The position numbers and the translations under genes were made by a program. The notes beneath the pieces were generated by a model. The model saw only the letters and a program-made list of their open reading frames with translations. It was not told where the DNA came from and did no database searches. DNA of 41,266 nt from Halomonadaceae bacterium T82-2 (lineage in GTDB: Bacteria > Pseudomonadota > Gammaproteobacteria > Pseudomonadales > Halomonadaceae): positions 1 through 41,266 of the forward strand of contig LSBP01000003.1 of the NCBI GenBank assembly GCA_001577635.1. The letters are read 5' to 3'. Below are positions 38,249-40,988 of this stretch, in pieces (position 1 is the first letter of the stretch; every line of letters starts with the position of its first letter).

Positions 38249-38406
38249 TGTGACGATCCCCGGCGGCCTGTTTGCCGTCGTCCGGAAACGGGCCATGCGC
38301 GCATGAGCGTCTCGGCCGGGGTGGACGCTCGGTACGCCGGCTGCTAATGTCGTTGCCCTTTCGAGTGTCGCTTCCGGCACCGTCCTCATGTCGGGCCGCT
38401 CAAGGG

Positions 38407-38432
38407 CGCCGGGGCCATGATGGCCGGTGGCG
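38407..38432 (+). other. Upstream hairpin in the thrS leader
   Basis: Paired segments CGCC with GGCG and GGCC with GGCC around ATGAT, with a mismatch between. It lies 112-87 bases before the thrS start. In E. coli an upstream stem of the thrS operator mimics the acceptor arm; this may be its counterpart. The rest of 38249-38518 holds no convincing gene. Confidence 0.4.
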
Positions 38433-38476
38433 ATGACTCGACGTATCGCGACTTACACTGACCAACTCCGCGACAT

Positions 38477-38497
38477 GTGATCCCTGGTATGGATCAC
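38477..38497 (+). promoter_or_regulatory. tRNA-Thr anticodon-arm mimic (thrS translational operator)
   Basis: Seven-base arms GTGATCC and GGATCAC enclose the seven-base loop CTGGTAT. In tRNA numbering the loop is C32, U33, G34-G35-U36, A37, U38, which is a threonine GGU anticodon loop. It lies 33-31 bases before the ATG (for the GGU triplet), next to the AAGGA ribosome-binding site at 38511-38513 or nearby. The layout matches the anticodon-like domain of the E. coli thrS operator, where ThrRS blocks its own translation. Confidence 0.65.
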
Positions 38498-38518
38498 CAC
38501 TGCGCTCAAGGATGCCTG

Positions 38519-40417
38519 ATGCCCATCGTGACTCTCCCGGACGGCAGCCAACGCTCGTTCGATGCCCCCCTTACCGTCATGCAGCTCGCCGAATTGATCG
38601 GTCCGGGGCTGGCCAAGGCCTGTGTGGCCGGCAAGATCGACGGCGTGCCGGTCGATGCCGCCGACCTGATCGACCATGATGCCGAGGTGGCGATTCTGAC
38701 CGCCCGGGATCCCGAAGGCCTGGAGGTGATTCGTCATTCCTGCGCCCACCTGATCGGTCATGCGGTCAAGCAGCTTTACCCGGATGCCAAGATGGCGATT
38801 GGCCCGGTGATCGACGACGGCTTCTATTACGACATCGACTTCGGACGTTCGGCGACGCCCGAGGATCTCGAGGCGATCGAGAAGCGCATGAAGCAGTTGA
38901 TCGACAGGGACTACGACGTGGTCCGCGAGTATGTCGATCGTGATCAGGCCATGCTGACCTTCCTGCATCGCGATGAGCCCTACAAGCAGGAGATCGTGCG
39001 CGAAATTCCGGAAGGCGAGACGATCCGGCTCTATCACCACGAAGAATACACGGACATGTGTCGCGGCCCGCACGTGCCCAACACGCGGCATCTCAAGGCC
39101 TTCAAGCTGACCAAGCTGGCCGGGGCCTACTGGCGTGGCGACGCCAGCAAGCCGATGCTGACGCGCATCTACGGAACGGCCTGGCCCGACAAGAAGCAGC
39201 TCAAGGCCTATCTCAAGCGGCTGGAAGAAGCCGAGAAGCGCGACCATCGCAAGCTCGCCCGGAAGATGGACCTCTTCCACCTGCAGGAAGAGGCGCCGGG
39301 CATGGTCTTCTGGCATCCCAACGGCTGGACCATGTATCAGGCTCTCGAGCAGTACATGCGTCGCGTGCAGATCGAGAACGGTTACCAGGAGATCAGGACG
39401 CCGCAGGTGGTGGACCTGTCACTGTGGAAGAAGTCCGGCCACTGGGGCCACTACTCGGAGCTGATGTTCGCCACCGAGTCCGAGAAGCGCGAGTACGCGG
39501 TCAAGCCGATGAACTGCCCGTGCCACGTGCAGGTCTTCAACCAGGGGCTGAAAAGCTACCGGGACCTGCCGCTGCGCCTGGCGGAGTTCGGCAGCTGTCA
39601 CCGCAACGAGCCGTCGGGCTCCCTGCACGGCCTGATGCGAGTGCGCGGCTTCACCCAGGACGACGCCCACATCTTCTGTACCGAGTCGCAGATCCAGGCC
39701 GAGGCGGAGGCGTTCATCGCGCTGACGCTCAAGGTCTACAAGGATCTGGGTTTCGAGGATGTCGAGCTCAAGCTGTCGACGCGTCCCGAGTCCTTCGTCG
39801 GCGAGATCGAGGACTGGGAGCGGGCCGAGAAGGGGCTTGCCGAGGCGCTCGACGCCTCCGGGCTCGAGTGGGAGCTGCTGCCCGGCGAAGGCGCCTTCTA
39901 CGGCCCCAAGATCGAGTTTTCCCTGCGCGACTGCCTGAACCGCGTCTGGCAGTGCGGCACGCTGCAGCTCGATTTCAACCTGCCCGGCCGCCTGGGCGCC
40001 CAGTACGTCGACGAGGACGGCTCGCGCAAGACGCCGGTGATGCTCCACCGTGCCATCCTCGGATCCTTCGAGCGCTTTCTGGGGATTCTCATCGAGCACT
40101 ATGCCGGTGCCATGCCGTTGTGGCTGGCCCCCCAGCAGGCCGTTGTGTTGACGATCACGGATGCACAGCGCGATTATGCGCTCGCCGTGGAGCAGCGCCT
40201 GCAGAAAATCGGTCTGCGCGTCAAGGCGGACTTGAGGAACGAGAAGATCGGCTTTAAAATCCGTGAGCATACGCTGCAGAAGGTTCCCTACCTGCTGGTC
40301 GTGGGGGACAAGGAAATTGAATCGGATTCAGTCGCCGTTCGTACCCGTAGTGGTGAGGATCTGGGCAGCATCAGGGTCGATGACCTGATCGCCCGACTCG
40401 AGGCAGAGCGGGGCTGA
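38519..40417 (+). CDS. thrS: Threonyl-tRNA synthetase
   Basis: ThrRS charges tRNA-Thr and clears mischarged serine. The 632-residue product has the N-terminal TGS domain (1-61), the editing domain with H73, H77, C181 and H185 (HSCAH and CRGPH), the class II catalytic core with [30 protein letters not shown] and the zinc-binding Cys and two His, and the anticodon-binding domain (about 530-632). The ATG at 38519 gives [10 protein letters not shown] as in family members; the in-frame GTG at 38477 falls inside the operator hairpin. infC and rpmI follow in the standard order. Confidence 0.97.
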
Positions 40418-40448: not shown

Positions 40449-40988
40449 ATCAAGCGGAACAATCAGCGCGGGCGTCCACAGGACAAGCGCCCTCCCATGA
40501 ACGACCGCATCCGTGAAGACGAAGTGCGGTTGATCGATAGTGACGGTGAGCAGGTTGGTGTGGTGCCGACCCGTGAAGCGCTCGAGCGCGCCGAAGAGGC
40601 TGGCATGGATCTCGTGCAGATTTCCAATGCCGACCCCATCGTCTGTAAAATCATGGATTACGGTAAATTTCTTTTCGAGCAGAAGAAGCAGAAGTCGGCT
40701 CAGAAGAAAAAGACCAAGCAGATCCAGGTCAAGGAAGTCAAGTTCCGGCCTGGTACCGACGAGGGCGATTATCAGGTCAAGCTCAAGAACCTGACTCGCT
40801 TTCTCGAAGGGGGTGACAAGGGCAAGGTCACCCTGCGATTCCGGGGGCGTGAGATGGCGCACCAGGACATCGGCCGCAAGCTGATGGAACGGATCGCCGC
40901 CGACCTCGAGGAACTGGCCAGTGTGGAGTCCTTCCCCAAGATGGAAGGCCGCCAGATGGTCATGATTCTGGCCCCCAAGAAGAAGTGA
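40449..40988 (+). CDS. infC: Translation initiation factor IF-3 (ATC start codon)
   Basis: IF3 binds the 30S subunit and checks the start codon. The 179-residue product covers the N-domain (about 17-90, with [22 protein letters not shown]) and C-domain (about 95-179, with [25 protein letters not shown]-type [10 protein letters not shown] and LAPKKK). The in-frame ATG at 40497 would remove the basic N-terminal tail. ATC at 40449 has GGAG at a nine-base spacing and restores the start [11 protein letters not shown] seen in relatives. E. coli infC starts with AUU, which lets IF3 repress its own mRNA. The same control is likely here. Confidence 0.93.

Follow-up and report, generated by a model that had tools for sequence, protein, structure and literature searches.

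Homology of a hairpin in the thrS leader of Halomonadaceae bacterium T82-2 to domain II of the Escherichia coli thrS operator

The leader of thrS, the gene for threonyl-tRNA synthetase (ThrRS), in Halomonadaceae bacterium T82-2 contains a hairpin (arm) that is very probably the Halomonadaceae copy of domain II of the gammaproteobacterial thrS translational operator, i.e. a mimic of the tRNA-Thr anticodon arm that would serve feedback control by ThrRS. The analysed stretch of DNA, called the window, comprises 41,266 nt (contig LSBP01000003.1). Homology to the E. coli element, the position upstream of thrS, covariation of the stem, and a constraint on loop positions 35 and 36 were all observed, and they support the arm well as a homologue of a known RNA switch. 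This analysis adds covariation across the class, a wobble position that is free to change, and an arm number that varies; the covariation evidence carries the textbook control circuit of E. coli over to Halomonas and a considerable part of the Gammaproteobacteria. The literature searched contained no earlier class-wide survey of the thrS operator; an earlier comparison may exist.

All features of the arm are on the forward strand. The 5′ side of the stem, GTGATCC (38477-38483), pairs with the 3′ side, GGATCAC (38491-38497), and the two enclose the seven-base loop CTGGTAT (38484-38490; C32, U33, G34, G35, U36, A37, U38). The stem and loop that had been reported in a preliminary description, with U33, GGU at positions 34-36, and A37 upstream of the ribosome-binding site, are therefore present letter for letter at 38477-38497. 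The stem is followed by CACTG (38498-38502), which is conserved among leaders and consists of a CAC internal loop and the TG (38501-38502) that can pair with CA (38474-38475) in a mostly invariant lower stem of 2 bp. A Shine-Dalgarno (SD) motif, AAGGA, was read directly from the sequence at 38508-38512, about 10 nt downstream of the stem. The AUG of thrS (38519-40417, 632 aa) is at 38519, and the arm starts 42 nt ahead of it. The leader thus has a stable stem and a seven-base loop with G35 and U36 directly upstream of the SD motif of thrS; in a context of 260 nt, all seven pairs are predicted with probabilities of 0.90-0.99.

A covariance model that was trained without Halomonadaceae (R2) found the arm as its sole match both in the window (E 2.1e-10) and in the whole genome (E 1.7e-8, limit 0.01). 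It also matched each of the 14 genomes of the genus, including that of the window. No Rfam 15 family reached its gathering score at the arm site, which makes the element a candidate RNA family that is not detected by Rfam 15 at this site. With E up to 10, the only Rfam match there was a chance match to RtT on the opposite strand (12.4 bits against a threshold of 45), and no tRNA gene was called at the site. An Rfam search of five other leaders (E up to 1) yielded a cspA element in L012 (287-608) and a weak sroE match in L006 (1347-1385), neither of them on the arm.

The thrS leader of E. coli K-12 contains the element GTGATCT-TTCGTGT-GGGTCAC-CACTG, likewise at -42 from the AUG, which we identified as domain II of the operator (domains I-IV) that ThrRS binds. 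The two elements share the 7-bp stem, the seven-base loop with U33 and N-G-U at 34-36, the CACTG flank, and the distance to the AUG, and R2, which includes E. coli, matches the window. The proposal of a tRNA-Thr anticodon-arm mimic in this leader is thus borne out by homology in sequence and position. The loops differ, with GGU and A37 (CTGGTAT) in the window in contrast to CGU and G37 (TTCGTGT) in E. coli. The matching solved structures of the E. coli enzyme include 1kog, presumably the complex with the operator RNA. In reviews (PMC11088916, PMC9976931, PMC7373986), domains II and IV of the E. coli operator are described as resembling the tRNA-Thr anticodon loop, bound ThrRS as preventing 30S binding, and replacement of the anticodon-like bases by their tRNA-Met counterparts as passing control to MetRS. 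Further reports describe yeast mRNAs with anticodon-like elements bound by a synthetase (PMC6542539, PMC9956033; for AspRS, PMC9976931); these are eukaryotic.

For a comparative analysis, 260 thrS leaders were collected, i.e. 80 from named contigs, 61 primary family leaders, that of the window among them, 2 leaders of second copies, 116 from a class draw with one genome per family (116 taken of 131 other genomes with ThrRS), and that of E. coli; some genomes are counted twice (L005 = L093, L007 = L110). A strict element was defined by at least six of seven pairs, GU in the loop, and at least four of the five letters of CACTG. It was found in 166 leaders, i.e. in 55 of the 61 family leaders, 67 of the 80 named-contig leaders, 43 of the 116 class leaders, and the leader of E. 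coli; both second-copy leaders lack it. For comparison, the strict element arose only 30 times in 52,000 Markov-1 resamples of all 260. Across elements, the stem starts 35-56 nt ahead of the AUG. The six family leaders without a strict element retain an NGU loop in a form that is broken, bulged, or devoid of CACTG. Four leaders of one family genus (L170, L171, L172, L174; g5) have lost CACTG but retain the NGU loop with the greater part of the stem; possibly they contain a diverged operator. The two second ThrRS genes, in the Halomonadaceae genomes G060 (L175) and G012 (L176), encode proteins 61% identical to that of the window, and their leaders lack the element.

The covariance model R1 matched 126 of 369 Gammaproteobacteria genomes (129 matches, nearly always one per genome), while ThrRS itself was found in 342 of the 369 (E up to 1e-100). 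Because 243 genomes, about two thirds, have no match to the model, the control is not universal in the class. For 97 matches the place of thrS was listed; 95 of these immediately precede a thrS gene of the same orientation, at a distance of 6-45 nt, and the remaining two are weak. In a draw from the phylum, 40 of 249 genomes matched; three of these are outside the class, and these weak matches have no ThrRS frame within 1.1 kb around them. Copies at other genes were also considered; the candidates, weak matches L298-L305 and L316, have no ThrRS frame in the surrounding stretch. One of them, L303, looks like the element, yet no ThrRS frame follows it.

To avoid a circular choice, elements were picked in two ways, namely by the loop GU and CACTG irrespective of pairing, and by pairing and CACTG irrespective of the loop. 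The second choice gave 168 of the 260 leaders with 98 distinct elements, and G35-U36 is present in 96 of these. The two exceptions (L207, L215) look like stray hairpins; in an earlier cut, the value was 104 of 104. In contrast, position 34 is G in 44, C in 37, A in 11, and U in 6 of the 98 elements. Position 33 is mostly U and position 37 mostly A or G. The fewest changes on a ThrRS tree are 22, 4, 22, 0, 0, 5, and 21 for positions 32 to 38, respectively; near-identical proteins were kept where their loops differed, which can add changes. The tree (FastTree) contains 122 of 140 ThrRS proteins, 99 of them with the element, and leaders L144-L263 are not on it. Fixed positions 35 and 36 next to a free position 34 would be expected from a ThrRS that recognizes G35 and U36 and is indifferent to the wobble base, and the natural series of loop variants may thus reveal which bases ThrRS must read. 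The earlier view of GGU as a variant of the E. coli control is not supported, because GGU is the commonest form, the E. coli type with CGU and G37 is less common, and position 34 has drifted, with AGU among its outcomes. A plain structural hairpin that shapes the ribosome-binding site, as a standby site or for mRNA stability and without ThrRS, would have no need for an unchanging G35-U36 beside a base that changed at least 22 times, nor for the preferences at positions 33 and 37. It would be compatible with the E. coli thrS ribosome-binding site, which is described in PMC3858243 as bipartite and interrupted by the hairpin that ThrRS recognizes; overall, we regard it as highly unlikely.

The first choice, irrespective of pairing, gave 170 of the 260 leaders with 128 distinct elements. 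Seven of seven pairs can form in 81 of these, six in 44, and two or three in the remaining 3, whereas after swapping of partners seven pairs were formed in 32 elements on average and in 42 at most. Thinning led to an alignment of 63 rows (A1), in which 92.2% of the cells are paired and 58 cells are changed on both sides; none of 500 shuffles reached either value, nor the covariation score of 0.412. Sliding the partners left at most 57% of the cells paired. Changes on both sides were found in all seven pairs of the main helix and in eight of the nine pairs of main and lower stem together, a number reached by 2 of 500 shuffles. A1 and R1 retain L262, which forms few pairs and is a chance hit; it is absent from R2, as are L233 and the 17 Halomonadaceae rows. 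Comparison with the leaders of relatives, which had been suggested as a check, thus revealed a strongly covarying stem and a conserved G35-U36. The same alignment bears on a DNA palindrome that would be a transcription factor site near the thrS promoter. In the window, the two sides of the stem are a perfect inverted repeat, and a palindrome of this sequence with any 7-nt loop and zero mismatches occurs only once in the 3.42-Mb genome. However, Watson-Crick pairs are replaced in relatives by G-U pairs (19, 6, and 22 of 63 rows at stem pairs 4, 5, and 7), which retain RNA pairing and break DNA symmetry. Together with the fixed loop positions, the stem start within 35-56 nt of the AUG, and the occurrence almost only at thrS, this makes a DNA site exceedingly unlikely. 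Conservation at the protein level, as an N-terminal extension of ThrRS or an upstream reading frame, has a negligible probability; a frame is open from GTG 38477 into thrS, but the stem starts in all three frames relative to the AUG (69, 50, and 47 of the 166 leaders).

The letters of the CACTG flank are present in 128, 127, 128, 127, and 120 of the 128 distinct elements, respectively, at least four of the five letters having been part of the selection. In the lower stem CA/UG around the CAC internal loop, 94.4% of the A1 cells are paired, mostly without variation; C-G is replaced by G-C in one row and by U-A in another. The predicted pair probability is 0.63-0.65 in the context of the window, and the lower stem is absent from the fold of the 29 nt alone and from the RNAalifold consensus. 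The evidence for it is thin.

The operator reading includes steps at the window arm that we derive from E. coli, as described in three reports (PMC9976931, PMC11088916, PMC3858243), i.e. ThrRS binding, repression, and tRNA competition. ThrRS in excess over tRNA-Thr would bind the arm, its anticodon-binding domain recognizing G35 and U36, and would thereby block the access of the 30S subunit to the SD motif. Plentiful tRNA-Thr would compete ThrRS off the arm, and thrS would be translated. This reading is supported by the absence of the arm from the additional ThrRS genes in two genomes of the family; it is weakened by the single arm found here versus two in the E. coli operator and by the ordinary stability of the leader as a whole. 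T-box leaders also place synthetase genes under the control of tRNA; they read the tRNA itself, whereas the RNA of the thrS arm would imitate it.

The preliminary description also included a second hairpin further upstream. Hairpins are indeed predicted at about 38400-38450, but they are not conserved, and the 161-nt leader as a whole folds no better than shuffled sequences (z 0.61; 144 of 200 shuffles fold at least equally well). A comparison of 24 family leaders by eye, without a formal test, revealed no common upstream hairpin. The hairpins predicted upstream in the window have no GU in the loop, and in the 110 nt upstream of the arm, the best 7-nt loop with GU at positions 35-36 has only +0.2 kcal/mol. 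For the E. coli leader, in contrast, an upstream hairpin with UGU in an 8-nt loop is predicted; no such loop was found in the window. Because a second anticodon-like arm was not found, we do not claim a two-arm operator of the type of domains II and IV for the window.

Among the loops of upstream hairpins, GU was the most frequent dinucleotide (36 of 176 leaders), followed by AC (14), and 22 of the 36 belong to Pseudomonas. Ranked by fold energy, GU led in Pseudomonas (22 of 22) and, by a small margin, in Halomonadaceae (11 of 62, next 9). Outside these two groups it was only third (10 of 92), and a general NGU excess in upstream hairpins was therefore rejected. One possible, rather speculative generalization is an ancient thrS operator family that spans the class and would be read only at G35-U36, so that the mimic could carry anticodons mostly absent from the organism's own tRNA-Thr set (AGU). 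The arm number would be evolvable; one arm would suffice here, and other lineages might have independently acquired one or two further NGU arms upstream to occupy both subunits of the ThrRS dimer. Natural leaders with one, two, and three arms are suited for tests of how the dimeric synthetase uses them.

The upstream hairpin of Pseudomonas is present in all 22 distinct leaders, with loops such as ACTGTGA, GCTGTAA, and ATCGTCA. In L012-L017, L019-L033, and L041, it starts about 98-114 nt ahead of the AUG and is typically CCTGCC-NCTGTNN-GGCAGG, with a fixed GU and mostly U at position 34 (C in L023, A in L022). Three tandem NGU arms were found upstream of thrS in L137 (1394-1490) and L051 (1386-1485), and two full copies of the arm in L306 (G413); the spacing in these three leaders is about 31-37 nt. 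The minimum-energy fold of L137 does not show all arms.

A34 is present in 10 clear distinct elements, the eleventh instance being the stray L215. In eight genomes with A34, a partial census by a tRNA pattern and by ARAGORN on selected loci found tRNA-Thr with GGU, UGU, or CGU. The pattern yielded seven AGU matches in these genomes; of six checked with ARAGORN, one was called as tRNA-Thr(AGU), in G199, and the seventh (G666:C10) has a span of 48 nt. At the locus in G199 (L355, 69-283), unusual tRNA calls with A34, namely Ser(AGA) and Thr(AGU), are clustered; these tRNAs may belong to a mobile element. In the genome of the window, tRNA-Thr with GGU, CGU, and UGU were found.

The window ThrRS is identical to that of E. 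coli at 395 of 632 aligned residues. It retains N575, E600, and R609, which we take to be the anticodon contacts of the E. coli enzyme, and this favors the operator reading; against it, 5 of the 27 E. coli positions compared differ, including R589, which is replaced by K. Downstream of thrS, at the end of the window, are frames that were read by eye from their translations as infC and rpmI. The apparent start of infC seems to be AUC (40449-40451), with GGAG 8 nt upstream and in frame with ATG 40497. The infC gene of E. coli begins with AUU, a rare start codon that underlies the self-control of IF3, and the AUC here is similar.
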